From Paludisphaera borealis (GTDB lineage: Bacteria > Planctomycetota > Planctomycetia > Isosphaerales > Isosphaeraceae): 64,000 bases of DNA. The stretch's first letter is position 1. Every line of letters begins with the position of its first letter. Location: assembly GCF_001956985.1 (NCBI RefSeq), contig NZ_CP019082.1, forward strand, positions 1,116,001 through 1,180,000. The letters run 5' to 3'. The translations under genes were made by a program, and so were the position numbers. The notes under the pieces are model-generated. The model was not told where the DNA came from, searched no databases, and saw nothing but the letters and a program-made list of their open reading frames with translations. Positions 47,801 to 55,265 of this stretch are shown piece after piece.

Positions 47801-48200
47801 GTCCGTCGCCCCGGCCGTCGTCCGCGTCGCGCGGGCGCGATCCATGGGGTGGGCCGAGCGTTTTCATCGGGCCCGTGATGGGGCCCGGCCATTGCCCCGA
47901 TGGACTGAGCCCCGTCGTCGCCGACGCCCCGGTTCCCGTACGATCGGCCTCGTCGAGGGGCGTCCCGGCGCGGAAGGCGCGCCGATCTCCCTCCCGCGGG
48001 GCCCCGCCGTAGAAACTCCCTCTCCCAGGTCCCGAGCCCGTCGACTGCCGGCCACGAGCCCCGGGCGATCGCCGTGCGCCCTTGATCCAGAGGTGTGCAG
48101 GTCTACCAGACGATTTGATGCTCGTGAATTCCCCTGTTTCTTTCGAAAACTCTCGAGTGGATGTCGACCGGCCGCGAGCCGGCCAGGAGAAATAACGGCC
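47801..48200. other. Non-coding gap upstream of the RND adaptor
   Basis: A 400-bp stretch. The adaptor frame is open through most of it, but the translation is Arg/Pro-rich and unlike any adaptor N-terminus. A promoter or leader for the RND genes is expected here; none could be located by eye. Confidence 0.4.
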
Positions 48201-49445
48201 ATGAATCCCTTCGTCTTTGCCATGCGGCGACCCTTCACAACCCTCATGCTGCTCGTCGCGCTTGCAGGTGGCGGCGTCCTCGGGTTGTCGGAATTGGGGG
48301 TCGATATCTTTCCGCCGCCCATCACGCGTAACATTCACGTCTGTCTTGATTACATGGGCGCGGGGGCCAAGCTGACGAAAGCGTACGTCGTCGGCCGGGT
48401 TGAGTCGTACTTTCACAAGCACGAGGAGCAGCCCCACCAGGAACACCACAAGATCGTGGTCACCACCCCCAAGGCCAAGGACGTCATCCTCACCCAGCGA
48501 TATGTCTGCCAGATCCACTCGCAGCGCCACACCGAGATCAGTGCCCTGGAGAGCGGCTATCTCGAGTCCATCTCGGTCAAGGAGGGGCAGGCGGTAAAGA
48601 AGGGTGATCTGCTGTTCAAGATCAAGCCGGTCCTGTACCAGGCGAGGCTGGACGCGGAGGTGGCCGAGGCTGACCTCGCGCAACTGGAATTCAAATACAC
48701 CAAGAAGTTGTCCGAGGACAATGTGGTCTCCCCGAATGAGGTGGCGCTGCTCCAGGCCAAACTGGCCAAGGCCCAGGCCAAGGCGAGTCTGGCGAGGGCC
48801 GAGTTGAACTTTACGAATGTCGTAGCACCTTTCGACGGCATCGTCGACCACCAGCACGAGCAATTGGGCAGCCTGATCAAGGAGGGGGACGTCCTCACGA
48901 CCCTGTCCGACAACAGCTTGATGTGGGTTTATTTCAACGTACCAGAGGCCGACTACCTCGAATACATGGCCGGCCTGGGTCAGAACAAGGATGATCGGAA
49001 GATCGAACTCTTGTTGGCCGGCGGCAACAAGTTCAAGGAAGTCGGCAAGATCGGCGCGATCGAGGCCAAGTTCAACAACGAGACCGGGAACATCGCCTTC
49101 CGCGCGGATTTTCCGAACCCGGACCGTCTGCTGCGTCACGGCCAGACCGGCACCGTGTTGATCAACCGAGTGATGAAGGACGCCATCGTCATCCCTCAGC
49201 GGGCGCATTTCGAGGTTCTCGACAAGCTGTACGTTTACGTCGTTGGCAAGGATGACGTGGTGCATCAGCGCGAGATCGCGATCCAGAACGAAATGGATGA
49301 CATCTATGTAGTCAAGAGCGGACTCGGCGTGGACGACAAGATCGTTCTCGAGGGGATCCAACAGGTTCGCGATGGCGAGAAAGTCGAATACGAGTTTAGC
49401 ACCCCGGAATTGGTTATGGCGCATCTAAAAAACAAGGCGGAGTAA
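48201..49445 (+). CDS. RND efflux periplasmic adaptor with pump-like N-terminus
   Basis: A predicted 414-residue membrane-fusion protein from ATG 48201 with AGGAGA 10 bases upstream. From about residue 70 it is a standard adaptor: lipoyl half-motif ISALESGYLESISVKEGQAV, alpha-hairpin with QLEFKYTKKLSEDNVVSPNE, second lipoyl half FTNVVAPFDGIVD, and a beta-barrel and membrane-proximal domain after it. It should bridge the inner-membrane pump and the outer-membrane factor. The first ~65 residues (MNPFVFAMRRPFTTLMLLVA then VDIFPPPITRNI) instead match the N-terminal helix of RND pumps. The pump gene follows 78 bp downstream. Confidence 0.88.
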   Translation: MNPFVFAMRRPFTTLMLLVALAGGGVLGLSELGVDIFPPPITRNIHVCLDYMGAGAKLTKAYVVGRVESYFHKHEEQPHQEHHKIVVTTPKAKDVILTQRYVCQIHSQRHTEISALESGYLESISVKEGQAVKKGDLLFKIKPVLYQARLDAEVAEADLAQLEFKYTKKLSEDNVVSPNEVALLQAKLAKAQAKASLARAELNFTNVVAPFDGIVDHQHEQLGSLIKEGDVLTTLSDNSLMWVYFNVPEADYLEYMAGLGQNKDDRKIELLLAGGNKFKEVGKIGAIEAKFNNETGNIAFRADFPNPDRLLRHGQTGTVLINRVMKDAIVIPQRAHFEVLDKLYVYVVGKDDVVHQREIAIQNEMDDIYVVKSGLGVDDKIVLEGIQQVRDGEKVEYEFSTPELVMAHLKNKAE

Positions 49446-49523: not shown

Positions 49524-52500
49524 ATGTTCGCAAAAATCCTCTATAGACCGGCGTTGGCGATCGTGATCTCCGTGATCATCTTGTTTCTGGGGGGGCTGGC
49601 GATCAAAACGCTGCCGATCTCCCAGTTCCCCTCCGTCGCGCCGCCGAGCGTGGTGGTCACGGTTGCTTATCCCGGCGCCAGCGCCGCAGTGCTGGTCGAC
49701 TCGGTTCTGATTATCCTGGAGCAGGCCATCAACGGCGTCCAGGACATGCGTTACATGGCCTCCGCCGCCACCAGCGCCGGCGAGGCGACGATCATGATCG
49801 TCTTCGAGCCGGGCACGGACCCGAATGTGGCGGTCTTGAACGTGAACAACCGGATCAACATGGTGAAAAACCGACTCCCTCCCCTGGTGGAGCGGGAGGG
49901 AATCGTCGTCATGCAGATGATGACGAGCATGCTGATGTATGTGAACGTCTTCAGTACGCAGAAGAGCGTCGACCAGAACTTCCTTTACAACTACGCGTTC
50001 GTCAACATCCTGCCCGAGATCAAGCGGGTCCGGGGCGTCGGCACCGCCACGATTCTCGGCAGCCGTCAGTATTCCATGCGGGTCTGGCTGGATCTCGACC
50101 GCATGCGCGCCTACAACCTGTCCTCCGAGGACGTCATGACGGCTCTGGGAAAACAGAGCATGATCGGCTCGCCCGGGCGACTCGGCCAGGCGACCGGCAG
50201 GACGTCGCAAACGGTCGAGTACGTCCTGACCTGGGTGGGACGCTACAACAAGACGGAGCAGTATGAAAACATCATTCTCAAGGCGAATCCTAGTGGAGAG
50301 ATCCTGCGGCTCAAGGACGTCGCCAAAATCGAGCTGAGCGCCTCGTACTACAACCTCTATTCGGACATCGACGGCCTTCCGTCTGCTGCCATCGTCCTCA
50401 AGCAAACGCCCGGATCCAACGCCGCCACCGTCATCGAGGAGGTCAAGGAGAAGCTCAAGGAGATGAAGGCGGAGTCGTTCCCTCCCGGCATGGACTTCGC
50501 GGTCACCTACGACGTCTCCGCGTTCCTGGAGGCCTCCATTGAGAAGGTGCTCCACACCCTGTTCGAGGCTTTCGTGTTGGTGGCCCTGGTGGTCTTCATG
50601 TTCCTCGGTGATTGGCGGTCCACGCTGATACCGACCCTGGCGGTTCCGGTGTCCTTGATCGGGACCTTCTTCTTCATGCTGATGTTCGGTCTATCGATCA
50701 ACCTGATCACGCTCTTCGCGCTGGTGCTGGCGATCGGCGTGGTGGTCGACGACGCGATCGTGGTGGTCGAGGCGGTGCATGCCAAGATGGCCGAGAAACA
50801 CCTCTCGCCCTATCGGGCGACCATGGAGGTCGTCCACGAGATCAGCGGCGCGATCATCGCCATCACCCTGGTCATGACGGCGGTCTTCATTCCGGTGACC
50901 TTCATGACCGGGCCGGTCGGCGTCTTCTACCGCCAGTTCGGTCTCACGATGGCCACGTCCATCGTCCTCTCCGGCGTCGTGGCCCTGACGCTCACGCCGG
51001 TTCTCTGTGCGATGCTCCTCAAGCCCCACACGAACCACGTGAAGAAGCGCGGGCCGCTGGCCATGCTGCTGCATGTCTTTGACCGTGGGGTCGAGAAGGT
51101 CACGGGCGGTTACGCCGCAGTCCTGCGCCGCATCGTCACGCGCCGCGCGTTCACCATGTTCGTCATCATGGGCTTCAGTACCGGCATTTACCTCGTAAAC
51201 ACGCAGCTCTCGACTGGCTTCATCCCGCTCGAGGACCAGGGCATGATCTATGGGATCATCCAGACGCCTCCGGGCTCGACCCTCGAGTACACCAACTCCA
51301 AGGCCCACGAACTACAGCAGATCGCCAAGGACATCGAAGGAGTCAACTCGGTCTCCTCGTTGGCCGGTTACGAGGTTCTGACCGAGGGGCGGGGCTCGAA
51401 CGCGGGGACCTGTCTCATCAATTTGAAGCCCTGGGCCGAGCGCAAGATGACCTCGCGCCAGATCATTGAGAAGCTCGACGAAAGAGGCCGCGCGATATCC
51501 AACGTCAAGCTCGAGTTCTTCGAGCCGCCCGCGGTTCCTGGATTTGGCGCGGCCGGGGGGTTCTCCACGCGCGTCCTCGACAAGACGAACACGAACGACT
51601 ACAAGCGGCTCGGAGAAGTGACCGCGAAGTTCATGGCCGCCCTGTCGAAGCGGAAGGAGGTGAAGGGCCTGTTCACCTTCTTCGCCAGCAACTACCCGCA
51701 GTATGAACTGGTCATCAACAACGACGTGGCCATGCAGAAGGGGGTGTCGATCGGGACCGCGATGGACAACCTATCGGTCGTCGTAGGCAGCACCTGGGAG
51801 CAAGGCTTCATCCTCTTCGGCCAGTTCTTCAAGGTCTTCGTCCAGGCCGCGCCGGAGTTCCGGCGGTTCCCCGAGGACTTGGAGAAAATGTTCGTCAAGA
51901 ACGATCGTGGGGAAATGGTCCCCTATTCCGCGTTCATGACGATCAAGAAGCAGCAGGGCCTGAACGAGATCAACCGCTACAACCTGTATCCCTCGGCCGC
52001 CATTCAAGGTGCGCCGGCGGCAGGCTACAGCAGCGGTCAAGCCATCAAGGCGATCGAGGAGGTCGCCGCCGAGACTCTGCCCCCCGGTTACGACATCGGC
52101 TGGGAAGGCCTTTCATATGACGAGGCGAATAAGGGGAACCTGGCTGTTTATATCTTCCTGATCGTCGTCGTCTTCGTCTATCTGGTGCTGGTCGGGCAAT
52201 ACGAGAGTTTCATGCTGCCGCTGGCCGTGATCCTGTCGCTGCCGGTCGGGCTCTTCGGGACCTTCCTGCTCCTGAAGATCATGGGGTTGTCCAACGACGT
52301 CTACGCCCAGATCGGACTGGTCATGCTGGTCGGTCTGCTCGGCAAGAACGCGATCTTGATCGTCGAATTCGCGGTGCAGCGGCGCCAGGAGGGCCTGAGC
52401 CTGAAAGAGGCCGCCATCGAAGGTGGAAAACTGCGATTCCGGCCGATTCTGATGACCTCCTTCGCCTTCATCGCCGGTCTCCTTCCGTTGGTCTATGCCA

Positions 52501-52691
52501 CCGGCCCCGGGGCGATCGGAAACCGCACCATCGGCACCGCCGCAGTCGGAGGGATGCTCGTGGGCACCTTGATTGGGGTCTTGGTAATTCCTGGCCTTTA
52601 TTACTTGTTCGGTGTGATTGCTGAGAAACGCAAACTCCTCCAGGACGAGGCGGATGAACCTCTCAGTGAGATTTTCGAGCACACCGCATAA
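49524..52691 (+). CDS. HAE1-family RND efflux pump, inner-membrane subunit
   Basis: A 1055-residue proton-driven exporter of the AcrB/MexB type. The N-terminal helix (IVISVIILFLGGLAIKTLPI) precedes the first porter domain. The proton relay is seen in GVVVDDAIVVVE, with Asp409 and Asp410 (equivalent to AcrB Asp407/408). The second half repeats the fold, with PVGLFGTFLLLKIMGLSNDV and GLLGKNAILIVEFAVQRR. The C-terminus ends QDEADEPLSEIFEHTA. Substrates are likely drugs or toxic amphiphiles. The adaptor is directly upstream, and the outer-membrane factor begins 732 bp downstream. Confidence 0.95.
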   Translation: MFAKILYRPALAIVISVIILFLGGLAIKTLPISQFPSVAPPSVVVTVAYPGASAAVLVDSVLIILEQAINGVQDMRYMASAATSAGEATIMIVFEPGTDPNVAVLNVNNRINMVKNRLPPLVEREGIVVMQMMTSMLMYVNVFSTQKSVDQNFLYNYAFVNILPEIKRVRGVGTATILGSRQYSMRVWLDLDRMRAYNLSSEDVMTALGKQSMIGSPGRLGQATGRTSQTVEYVLTWVGRYNKTEQYENIILKANPSGEILRLKDVAKIELSASYYNLYSDIDGLPSAAIVLKQTPGSNAATVIEEVKEKLKEMKAESFPPGMDFAVTYDVSAFLEASIEKVLHTLFEAFVLVALVVFMFLGDWRSTLIPTLAVPVSLIGTFFFMLMFGLSINLITLFALVLAIGVVVDDAIVVVEAVHAKMAEKHLSPYRATMEVVHEISGAIIAITLVMTAVFIPVTFMTGPVGVFYRQFGLTMATSIVLSGVVALTLTPVLCAMLLKPHTNHVKKRGPLAMLLHVFDRGVEKVTGGYAAVLRRIVTRRAFTMFVIMGFSTGIYLVNTQLSTGFIPLEDQGMIYGIIQTPPGSTLEYTNSKAHELQQIAKDIEGVNSVSSLAGYEVLTEGRGSNAGTCLINLKPWAERKMTSRQIIEKLDERGRAISNVKLEFFEPPAVPGFGAAGGFSTRVLDKTNTNDYKRLGEVTAKFMAALSKRKEVKGLFTFFASNYPQYELVINNDVAMQKGVSIGTAMDNLSVVVGSTWEQGFILFGQFFKVFVQAAPEFRRFPEDLEKMFVKNDRGEMVPYSAFMTIKKQQGLNEINRYNLYPSAAIQGAPAAGYSSGQAIKAIEEVAAETLPPGYDIGWEGLSYDEANKGNLAVYIFLIVVVFVYLVLVGQYESFMLPLAVILSLPVGLFGTFLLLKIMGLSNDVYAQIGLVMLVGLLGKNAILIVEFAVQRRQEGLSLKEAAIEGGKLRFRPILMTSFAFIAGLLPLVYATGPGAIGNRTIGTAAVGGMLVGTLIGVLVIPGLYYLFGVIAEKRKLLQDEADEPLSEIFEHTA
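52642..52691 (+). repeat. Duplicated pump/OMF boundary, copy 1
   Basis: This is the last 50 bp of the pump gene through its TAA. It recurs at 53412-53461 with about 41 of 50 bases the same and no gap; the first 19 bases (AGGACGAGGCGGATGAACC) are identical. The embedded ATG (out of frame with the pump) corresponds to the outer-membrane factor start codon in copy 2. Confidence 0.85.
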
Positions 52692-52938
52692 TCGGTGGGA
52701 AGGTCCCTTCCGACGAGGCGTCGACGTCTCGTCGGGGGGGGGGCGCGGCGACGGAGGTCGGCGACGCTTTAGAGTCGGGTCGCGAACACCCGTCGATGGA
52801 GCCGAACCGAGCCGCCGCCAAATGATGGTATTGCAGAGGCGAGGTTGCTCCGCCAACCCAAGGATCGCAGTCGTCGCCCCCGAGAACTGTCGCTTGACTT
52901 GAGGATCAGGTCGAGCATTTTCCCGACCCTTCGGCCCC

Positions 52939-53081
52939 CTACAGATCGCCGATGATCCGTTGGACCGCGCGGCGATTGATGCGGATGCGTTCGGCCAGAT
53001 CGCAAAGCCGGCGCTTGGGCGATGCAAATAAGGACATGGGCATGGTTGCTGAGGAACGTGCAACTGGTCGGACCCTGACAT
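52939..53081 (-). pseudogene. Frameshifted winged-helix (MarR-like) regulator fragment
   Basis: On the minus strand three frames line up to give a regulator N-terminus: a possible start MSGSDQ (53081), then CTFLSNHAHVLICIAQ (about 53065-53018), then KRRLCDLAERIRINRRAVQR (to a stop at 52939). Together they match the winged-helix pattern '..TFLTNHA.VL..IA..P..RLRDVAE..GITERAVQRI..DL' common in small regulators. Two frameshifts and the stop right after the recognition helix, where the wing should follow, show it is broken. It lies between the RND pump and the outer-membrane factor. Confidence 0.6.
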
Positions 53082-53411
53082 GATGTTCGACGTCTCCCCA
53101 CGGACGGGCTTGACGGCTCGACGAGAATCGGCTAGACAGTGCTCGATCTTCCTTTCTCAGTTCGTCCGCGGGGCGATTCACGCTCCGGATTCCGGCATCG
53201 ATCCTGAATCCGCCCGCTCTTATTTATAAATGTAGTCACTTGTGTCCGCGCGGTGGTCCCTCTCGATCGAGGAGCCTCCGAGTGCGAGACGTCGCCACGA
53301 CGGCTGCACGGGGCTCACCCCTCGCTCGGAGGGTCGTGACGCCCGAGATTTGGTGGTCGTTTCAGCTCCCGTCGGCGGATGGCCGAAAGTCGTTCGGTGG
53401 TGGAACTTACG

Positions 53412-53461
53412 AGGACGAGGCGGATGAACCAGTCAGTGAGCTTGGCGAACACGAAGCATAA
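53412..53461 (+). repeat. Duplicated pump/OMF boundary, copy 2
   Basis: Second copy of the 50-bp segment at 52642-52691. In the pump frame it encodes EDEADEPVSELGEHEA followed by TAA, resembling the real pump C-terminus. The outer-membrane factor starts within it at ATG 53424. It is probably the leftover 3' end of another pump gene. Confidence 0.8.
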
Positions 53462-55265
53462 GCAGCGCGCTGTTGCGATCGCGATGGCTTGCAGCTTCCT
53501 GCTGGTCTTGCCGTCCTGTGGAATCCCTGCGCTCCGTTATCCGAAGCCGGGACCAGGCGTGCCGGACAGCTTCGATCTCCGCAAGGCGGATCCGAAATCA
53601 GACTTGCCGGACGTCTTCGATAAAGCGATCAGCTCGGAAAACTCAGCTCAGGTCAGGATCGAAGACTTTTTCAATGATCCGATGCTGACGGGCTTGATGT
53701 ACACGGCGTTGGGCGGAAACCAGGAGTTGAGGATCCTGATTGAGAACGTCCAGATCGCCAGCAACGAGATTATGTCGAGGCAAGGTGCATACCTTCCCTT
53801 CGTCTTTCTCGGGGGCGGCGTTGGGGTGGACAAAGTCAGCAATTACACACTTCCGGGAGCCGGCATACGCGACGACCCGTTTCGCCCCGGGATGTTCCTT
53901 CCCAATCCGCTGCCGAATTTCTTGTTAGGCCCTACCTTCTTGTGGACGCCGGACATCTGGAGGCAGTTGCATAATGCCAAAGACGCGGCGGCGGCTCGCT
54001 ACTACGCCGCCGCTGAGGCACGGAACTACTTCGTGACCCGCATGTTGGCAGATATCGCCGAAAACTATTACCAGCTCATGGCGCTCGACAAGCGGCTTGA
54101 GATTCTGGATCAAACCATCGCGCTTCAGGAGCGAAGCCTCGAGGTCGCCAAGTCCATCAAGGAAGGCGCCCGCGGCACCGAGTTGCCTGTCCAGCGGTTC
54201 CTGGCCGAGGTCCGCAGGAACCAGAGCGAGAAGCTGATCGTCAACCAGGATATCATCGAGACCGAGAACCGTATCAACTTCCTGCTCGGTCGCAACCCGC
54301 AACGGGTCGAACGCATGTCGGGGGACTTCATCGATCTGAGCTTGCATGAACTGAGCATAGGCGTGCCCCCCCAGCTACTCCAGAACCGACCCGACATCCG
54401 CCAAGCCGAGCGCGAGCTGGCGGCGGCCGGGCTTGACGTGAAGGTCGCCCGGAAACGCTTCTATCCTCAGATGCTCATCACCTCCGGCGTTGGCTACCAG
54501 GCTTTCGACCCAAGGTATCTCTTCATTACTCCGGAAGCCTTGATCGCCAATGTCGCCGGCAACCTGATCGCGCCGTTTATCAACAAGAAAGCGATCAGGG
54601 CCGACTACCTCAGCGCGGACGCCCGGCAACTGCAGTGCGTCTACAACTACCAGCGCGTCGTCCTCAACGCCTTCACCGAGGTGATAAACCGCCTGTCCAA
54701 GGTGGAGAACTACCGCAACAGCATCGAGATCAAGAAGCAGCAGTTGGCAGCGCTCGAGAAATCGGTCCAAGTCGCCATGAGCCTTTTTCAGTTTGCCCGG
54801 GCCGATTACGTGGACGTGCTATTCGCCCAGCGTGACCTTAGAGACGCAAGAACGGTCACGGTCGAAACCAAGCAACAGCAACTGTCCGCCATCATAGACA
54901 CCTATCAAGCCCTCGGCGGCGGCAGCTATTTGTTGCCGATCTCCATCCCGAAACCGCTGCAATCTCACCATTGGAAGCTTTGGAGACACTCAAAAGCGAG
55001 TGAAGAGGCGGAGCCGATTCCAACACCGATGGCGGCGGCGGCAGGGCCGGAGCCGACTCTGCCATCAACTCCGGCAGCGGCGGAGGGGCCGGAACCGATT
55101 CCACCACCACCGCCGGCTGCGGCAGGTGGACCGGAACCGACTCTAGCACCGACACCGGCGGCGCCGGGGGGGCTGGAACCCCTCCCAGCACCGGCGACGA
55201 CAGAGGGGCCGGAACCCCTCCCAGCAACAACGGAAGGCGGAAAGGGGCCTGGAACTGCTCCGTAG
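53424..55265 (+). CDS. RND outer-membrane factor (TolC/OprM-type lipoprotein)
   Basis: A 613-residue protein from ATG 53424, preceded by GAGGACGAGG. A lipoprotein signal (ACSFLLVLPSCG) gives a lipidation Cys. Two OEP repeats follow with the usual blocks ELRILIENVQIASNEIMSRQ, FLWTPDIWRQLHNAKDAAAA, LLQNRPDIRQAERELAAAGL and FARADYVDVLFAQRDLRDAR. It should form the trimeric outer-membrane channel for the adjacent adaptor and pump. The last ~95 residues are unusual: degenerate repeats of (A/G)GPEP(I/L)PxPxP after LWRHSKASEEAE. The frame upstream to 53379 is not needed. Confidence 0.9.
   Translation: MNQSVSLANTKHKQRAVAIAMACSFLLVLPSCGIPALRYPKPGPGVPDSFDLRKADPKSDLPDVFDKAISSENSAQVRIEDFFNDPMLTGLMYTALGGNQELRILIENVQIASNEIMSRQGAYLPFVFLGGGVGVDKVSNYTLPGAGIRDDPFRPGMFLPNPLPNFLLGPTFLWTPDIWRQLHNAKDAAAARYYAAAEARNYFVTRMLADIAENYYQLMALDKRLEILDQTIALQERSLEVAKSIKEGARGTELPVQRFLAEVRRNQSEKLIVNQDIIETENRINFLLGRNPQRVERMSGDFIDLSLHELSIGVPPQLLQNRPDIRQAERELAAAGLDVKVARKRFYPQMLITSGVGYQAFDPRYLFITPEALIANVAGNLIAPFINKKAIRADYLSADARQLQCVYNYQRVVLNAFTEVINRLSKVENYRNSIEIKKQQLAALEKSVQVAMSLFQFARADYVDVLFAQRDLRDARTVTVETKQQQLSAIIDTYQALGGGSYLLPISIPKPLQSHHWKLWRHSKASEEAEPIPTPMAAAAGPEPTLPSTPAAAEGPEPIPPPPPAAAGGPEPTLAPTPAAPGGLEPLPAPATTEGPEPLPATTEGGKGPGTAP
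55016..55260 (+). repeat. Degenerate Pro/Glu-rich coding repeats at the OMF 3' end
   Basis: About seven tandem units of 24-42 bp, each with GGGGCCGGAACC-like cores, encode GPEP or GLEP plus proline-alanine spacers. They lie at the end of the outer-membrane factor gene. Such units expand and shrink readily; they probably form an extended periplasmic tail or arose when the gene end was disturbed. Confidence 0.7.

Follow-up and report, generated by a model that had tools for sequence, protein, structure and literature searches.

The operon for a predicted efflux system in the Paludisphaera borealis genome raises the question of how two genes that overlap in some planctomycetes can come apart: its pump gene and its outer membrane factor (OMF) gene are 732 nt from each other, and the junction between them is present twice. 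The operon lies in a window of 64,000 nucleotides, the whole stretch of DNA that was analyzed, and its three genes, which belong to the adaptor, permease, and OMF families, form a single cluster on the forward strand, as in tripartite RND operons. The periplasmic adaptor (MFP) gene (48201 to 49445) probably starts at 48201 with MNPFVF, as the proteins of relatives align with it from residue 1 (e.g., MNPFKFAMRRP in G014); its product matches the HlyD_D23 domain (Pfam ID PF16576; E value of 3.6e-18, scored on the longer frame 47844 to 49445). The N-terminal part of the adaptor (48201 to 48400) resembles the start of an RND pump (ACR_tran, Pfam ID PF00873; 4.5e-5, under the curated cutoff), and the idea that it is a captured piece of the operon's own pump was dropped as weak, with a best E value of 0.01 among 78 adaptors. 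The pump (permease) gene (49524 to 52691) is intact and encodes 1055 aa (PF00873; 1.6e-293), with orthologs in relatives that are 62 to 95% identical over the longest alignments. The OMF gene (53424 to 55265; 613 aa) encodes a member of the OEP family (Pfam ID PF02321; 6.8e-27) with what was judged by eye to be a lipoprotein-type N terminus. Its 3' end contains a tandem repeat of ~42-nt units (55024 to 55232), which results in a Pro- and Ala-rich C-terminal tail.

The final 50 bases of the pump gene (52642 to 52691, forward strand; copy 1) recur at 53412 to 53461 (copy 2) as an ungapped direct repeat with 41 of 50 bases identical, exactly as a preliminary description of this DNA had reported. 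In the pump frame, copy 1 encodes DEADEPLSEIFEHTA and copy 2 encodes DEADEPVSELGEHEA, each followed by a stop codon, and the two copies have ATG triplets at equivalent positions, which in copy 1 is unused and out of the pump frame (52654) and in copy 2 serves as the predicted OMF start (53424), so that these two observations of the preliminary description also proved accurate. The start common to relatives is 53424; the ATG at 53379, although the first in the frame, is not the conserved one. Copy 2 also carries a Shine-Dalgarno-like AGGA. Translation of copy 1 in the OMF frame from 52654 gives MNLSVRFSSTPH (within the open reading frame 52618 to 52902), which resembles the N termini of OMF proteins, such as MNLSVRLSMTKH in G009. 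The best other 50-mer match of copy 1 in the window is 27/50 on the forward strand (63,708 positions) and 28/50 on the reverse strand, and the 19-mer AGGACGAGGCGGATGAACC occurs exactly at the two junction copies alone in the whole genome of 7.65 Mb and 3 contigs (17 further places match it with 1 to 3 mismatches each). The junction is therefore not a common short motif, a possibility that the preliminary description had kept in mind.

In a number of relatives, the same two genes overlap at this very place. A scan of genome contigs by OMF alignment, from which the best 80 of 121 relatives were kept as named loci, was supplemented with 15 loci from the genomes of relatives and with the window; of the 96 loci examined in total, 80 have the pump upstream of the OMF. 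The overlap form is found in 12 of the 96, including those of Rhodopirellula baltica, Lacipirellula limnantheis, Bythopirellula polymerisocia, Aeoliella straminimaris, and Roseiconus nitratireducens. In these loci, the predicted OMF start lies within the pump tail at the homologous place, in phase +1 and with an overlap of 38 to 44 nt; it is in frame and precedes the Pro of PLSE by two codons. For most of these loci, the codon pair at this start is the Asp-Glu of the window, the exceptions being Asp-Asp in L142, Tyr-Asp in L135, and Phe-Glu, with a TTG start codon, in L139. The OMF alignments of L131, L166, and L170 begin some residues late, so that their OMF starts are predictions from the homologous place, and the overlap loci contain further in-frame ATGs upstream, mostly at most 53 nt from the pump stop. 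Three more loci (L152, L163, and L167) have predicted pump-OMF gaps of 4 to 13 nt. The spacers of relatives with an OMF match in one comparison range from 215 to 860 nt. Thus, the comparison of relatives that the preliminary description had proposed brought out the overlap that it postulated, and a spacer of the same 730 bp in all relatives, which would have spoken against such a history, is not what they have.

In many operons in which the two genes are separate, the DNA before and across the OMF start spells, in the pump frame, a decaying pump tail. Examples include GLYHLFGSISDKHKFIKDEIDEPLNESFNHEA in L122, 1185 nt 3' of the pump, and IAYCLFGGSANKRKLLKDEADELLSEILEREA in G033, and similar tails are seen in G025, G006, G014, and G031, where the OMF gene precedes the adaptor gene. 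A position-specific profile derived from 78 pump tails was scanned over the 81 nonoverlapping loci (the 12 overlap loci and the three with gaps of 4 to 13 nt, which are too short, were left aside) against 200 dinucleotide shuffles, for which the minimum p is 0.005. Matches with p < 0.01 were found in 25 of the 81 loci, and the best match places the ATG of the fossil in the OMF frame in 40, with no such in-frame register match in the other 41. In 37 of these 40, the match is at most 18 nt from the predicted OMF start; L132, L144, and L151, with in-frame matches 177 to 210 nt away, make up the rest. Two loci, L072 and L155, reach p < 0.01 but are outside the 40. The window scores a z value of 9.3 (p = 0.005). 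When the register was fixed, 29 of 78 OMF starts exceeded all 676 control starts in the KDEADEPLSE block and 14 of 78 did so in the block 5' of the ribosome-binding region; the window exceeds all 676 in the former and ranks within the upper 2.5% in the latter. With a profile built without the overlap loci and each locus's own tail, 32 of 78 OMF starts exceed all 684 controls. The control starts were the first ATGs of open reading frames taken from both strands with a minimum length of 250 aa, a good many of them surely not genes, and these starts do not score, so a common start motif was rejected as the source of the likeness.

Judged by its sequence, copy 2 is the remnant of a pump-gene end, as the preliminary description had supposed, and it lies at the OMF start in the register of the pump tail. 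The decayed 3' end of what would be a second pump copy can be followed from 53285 to 53461 on the forward strand, clearly at 53412 to 53461 and faintly 5' of that (VTPEIWWSF versus VIPGLYYLF), with a tblastn E value of 0.002 for 53285 to 53467, copy 2 included.

The spacers of other loci hold pieces of further genes. In L102 (from G033), residues 29 to 90 of an OMF are encoded directly 3' of the intact pump gene (hmmsearch E value of 4.3e-14), and the fossil of the pump tail, with the intact OMF gene, comes ~570 nt beyond this piece. In L100, the contig begins within the pump gene, and an OMF piece interrupted by a stop codon precedes the OMF gene (5e-9). Weak matches were obtained for L103 (0.007) and L155 (0.019, overlapping in part the open frame that encodes the intact OMF), and a control search of reversed spacers returned 0 matches. 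Matches in the spacers of L137, L175, L132, L144, L162, L171, and L173 fall at least mostly in the frame of the intact OMF gene and were rejected as remnants. The search for OMF remnants found none in the window's own spacer, and the one for adaptor remnants found none in 63 spacers.

The window's spacer does contain, on the reverse strand at 52939 to 53077, what appears to be a decayed regulator gene of the winged-helix (MarR-like) type, spread over two frames (hmmsearch E values of 5.8e-7 and 6.2e-5, with 0 matches in the reversed control), and no other of the 63 spacers gave such a match. The joined peptide matches MarR (Pfam ID PF01047) at 1e-5. An intact regulator gene is found in divergent orientation upstream of the adaptor gene in seven genomes of the Isosphaeraceae type (G014, G031, G033, G035, G028, G015, and G011); the one of G014 is at L072:3256-3585, and another site is L035:12013-12552. 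Regulator matches number one or none per genome (37 and 9 genomes searched). In G001, G003, G021, and G016, the single copy is located away from the operon, and the searches of G025 and G006 produced no match to this gene. In the window's own genome, no match to the regulator was found at E values of 1e-4 or lower, and, with solely a decayed piece found there, the window's operon may have lost its regulator. The best DNA matches of the remnant come from G013, G024, and G008, genomes with no close ortholog of the window's pump. Since these matches are outside the operon and the gene is elsewhere or absent in several relatives, the link of the remnant to the operon is suggestive only.

We consider it quite probable that the two genes were separated through the presence of two side-by-side copies of the operon, which were then resolved by reciprocal loss. 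The ancestor would have had the OMF start within the last pump codons, in phase +1 and with an overlap of about 38 to 44 nt, as several present-day planctomycetes do. A second operon copy would have been placed beside the first by tandem duplication or by the arrival of a related operon, which would give the gene order regulator (reverse), adaptor, pump, OMF, regulator (reverse), adaptor, pump, OMF. The lineage of the window would then have retained pump 1 and OMF 2 and lost OMF 1, adaptor 2, and almost the whole of pump 2, whose last codons would have been kept as they hold the ribosome-binding site, the start codon, and the first codons of OMF 2; the junction would thus be seen twice because the tail of pump 2 could not go. 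An array of this kind could also have been resolved in a different way, as in Singulisphaera-type genomes, to leave the tail of pump 1, OMF 1, the regulator, adaptor 2, and pump 2.

Both gene orders are found among the loci. The first one (adaptor, pump, a piece of what would be OMF 1 or regulator 2, the pump 2 tail, and OMF 2) is seen in the window, L102, and L100, and the second one (pump 1 tail, OMF 1, regulator 2, adaptor 2, and pump 2) is seen in G014, G031, and G035. G015 is similar to the latter, with the OMF start beyond the contig end, and it shares with these three the regulator between the OMF and adaptor genes; in G025 and G006, which also have the second order, no regulator was matched. 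In the eight loci with the OMF gene before the adaptor gene, a pump tail is present at the OMF start in six, in the case of L072 across a frameshifted OMF gene. The latter gene, that of G014 (L072 3911-5793, minus strand), is split over two frames, which is either decay or a sequencing error. Several remnants that the array predicts are present, namely, the OMF pieces of L102 and L100 and, in the window, the pump tail and the regulator remnant, the place and orientation of which are as expected. Among loci of the second order, the searches (E values of 0.01 or lower) found no OMF remnant 3' of the pump in 6 stretches of 3 kb and the pump tail alone before the OMF gene in 8 stretches. The 96 loci, in stretches of up to ~20 kb, include no intact or half-decayed two-copy array, L154 having two adaptor genes only. 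As no intact array was seen and the predicted remnants are missing from the second order, we infer the array, and the order of the losses, from its presumed products. The preliminary description had considered a simple insertion, and the spacer is better read as the remains of a second, adjacent copy of the operon.

Recombination, which the preliminary description had also invoked, appears to have been involved, given that the trees of this genome's pump and OMF conflict. The pump of the window falls among the Singulisphaera-type pumps, to which it is 92 to 95% identical, versus 82 to 85% for the congeneric G001 to G004, whereas the window's OMF groups with Paludisphaera in the OMF tree. In approximately unbiased (AU) tests, with the groups named after the trees were seen, placing either of the two in the opposite grouping was rejected with log-likelihood losses of 205 (p = 3e-54) and 340 (p = 3e-8), and a wider OMF grouping was rejected with a log-likelihood loss of 65 (p = 6e-6). 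The adaptor tree gives no resolved placement of the window's adaptor. A resident second RND operon whose ends match, as the possible donor, was rejected on the ground that the 19-base core of the junction occurs exactly nowhere in the genome outside the window.

The mapping of breakpoints was likewise suggested at that stage. No breakpoint was seen inside the pump gene in blocks of 75 residues up to residue 1050 of the frame, every block compared being more identical to the Singulisphaera-type than to the Paludisphaera-type pumps. The OMF-proximal part of the spacer (53104 to 53420, forward strand) is similar to DNA of G001 (69% over 275 bp), G028 (69% over 311 bp), and G009 (87% over 101 bp), with no match in G002; as the spacer is common to G001 from 53104 on and not before, a junction may lie between 52692 and 53104. 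A recent exchange of the pump is likely to have been an additional event.

A different explanation would make the split a private and recent matter, with the repeat created by recombination with a second resident RND operon. The conflict between the pump and OMF phylogenies is in line with this, as is the closeness of the window's copies (41/50), which exceeds that in the 33 other loci with both copies scored. However, over the 34 loci, the two copies of a pair share on average 25.8/50 bases, hardly more than the 25.0/50 of copies compared across genomes. In addition, copy 1 is as close to the OMF starts of L103 (42/50) and L100 (41/50) as it is to its own copy 2, so that the likeness looks inherited and not recent, and the split is not private to this genome, with decayed pump tails before the OMF gene in several genera. 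With no second exact junction in the genome either, we hold a private event to be very improbable. An accidental resemblance, in which a Shine-Dalgarno sequence followed by a start codon happens to look like the acidic codons of a pump tail, is scarcely credible. Part of the 19-bp core (AGGA...ATG) probably is under translation initiation constraint in copy 2, but the control starts do not score, and the better fossils are alike both 5' of the ribosome-binding region and 3' of the ATG in the other frame.

Another history would consist of a short local duplication of the overlap region, from tens to ~200 bp, and an insertion of unrelated DNA, with no second copy of the operon. It would account for the fact that the pump tail alone is recognizable in most spacers, for the lack of adaptor remnants in the 63 spacers and of anything beyond the tail in the other gene order, and for a regulator remnant that is closest to genes outside the operon. 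Against it, the OMF pieces found 3' of the pump in L102 (residues 29 to 90) and L100, the regulator remnant of the window, and the other gene order with the same fossil suggest that the copying went beyond the junction; we regard this history as unlikely. The direction of change could also have been the opposite, with the split form coming first, the pump tail copied before a separate OMF gene, and the overlaps produced later by deletion between the direct copies, which gives exactly the same overlap. The polarity was examined on a FastTree tree with a weak backbone, for which a plasmid search supplied distant relatives only (less than 60% identity in 25 of 25 records), four Bacteroidota plasmid operons (L210, L211, L212, and L213) serving as the outgroup. 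In these operons, the two genes are neighbors that share 8 nt where the pump gene ends, and the phase of the overlap is the same. This favors contact as the older state, and, with the outgroup coded as overlap by choice, the root state is overlap at the four cost settings used. Parsimony with equal costs gives one early split and eight regains of the overlap, as a split-first history would have it, and with a regain cost of 3, it gives 11 splits and 2 regains. Each of the two main halves of the pump tree contains overlap forms, which also argues against a split-first history, and we see the latter as decidedly unlikely. A two-copy array with reciprocal loss remains the reading that we prefer.

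The duplicated junction may also have a bearing on how lasting the split is. Since deletion between the direct copies would recreate the ancestral overlap with both genes open, the arrangement would be reversible, and copy 2 retains the pump frame and its stop codon. That the split and overlap forms actually interconvert over evolutionary time is, in our estimate, rather unlikely; if they do, the coupling of the pump and the OMF would act as a genetic switch, though a slow one, and the tree would include repeated returns.

As for the present working of the locus, it is plausible that the split OMF gene is transcribed separately from a promoter of its own, and the OMF-proximal spacer (53104 to 53420) would be the likely place for this promoter and the 5' untranslated region. 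Directly 3' of the pump stop, at 52705 to 52740 on the forward strand, there is a 16-bp hairpin that could form the 3' end of the pump transcript (fold z value of -4.0; 0 of 200 shuffles equally stable). Structures 3' of the pump with z < -3 are found in 13 of 61 split loci versus 1 of 61 midspacer controls. At z < -2, they are found in 4 of 12 overlap loci versus 17 of 61 split loci, and the hairpin as a mark of split loci is weakened because the overlap loci have stable structures, too. Consensus scans of 52600 to 53500 for promoters and terminators found none, and an Rfam search of 52600 to 53600 returned a single match with an E value of 0.58, far under the gathering score.

On the preferred reading, the duplicated junction would illustrate how overlapping genes can come apart. 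According to the cited part of a study of gene overlaps, they involve about a third of annotated bacterial genes, prior work has dealt with the creation and not the loss of overlaps, and there has been little study of how an overlap is undone with both genes left intact (PMC4161906). In the corresponding part of another study, Escherichia coli overlaps are described as broken up in Salmonella (PMC3843671). Overlapping pairs that are separated between relatives are thus common to the cited parts of these papers (PMC3843671 and PMC4161906) and the present case. The difference is in the route: the discussion in PMC4161906, as far as cited, concerns the loss of a start codon and the gain of another, whereas here duplication and reciprocal loss are suggested by the duplicate junction and the pseudogene pieces. 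Among the papers listed in literature searches, none names in its title or in the opening of its abstract the overlap of this operon, or duplication as a route of overlap loss. A single operon family here contains overlapping and split forms, pseudogene pieces, and a tail fossil that serves as a start region, which leads to the prediction that a separated gene pair should often keep part of its upstream gene where the downstream gene starts.

In its content and in the order adaptor-pump-OMF, the operon is the same as the known tripartite RND operons, with their HlyD/CusB-type adaptor, ACR_tran permease, and TolC/OEP-type OMF; it differs from them in the 732-nt gap between the pump and OMF genes and in the duplicated junction, whereas an overlap of 38 to 44 nt is retained in some other planctomycetes. 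Tandem duplication with random loss is a model of mitochondrial gene order. The history proposed here resembles it in that both gene orders would be alternative resolutions of one array, with some of the remnants as predicted. Unlike in that model, the process would operate on a bacterial operon whose genes overlap, the array of which was not observed, and a fragment of one gene would have to stay in place as the start region of the other.
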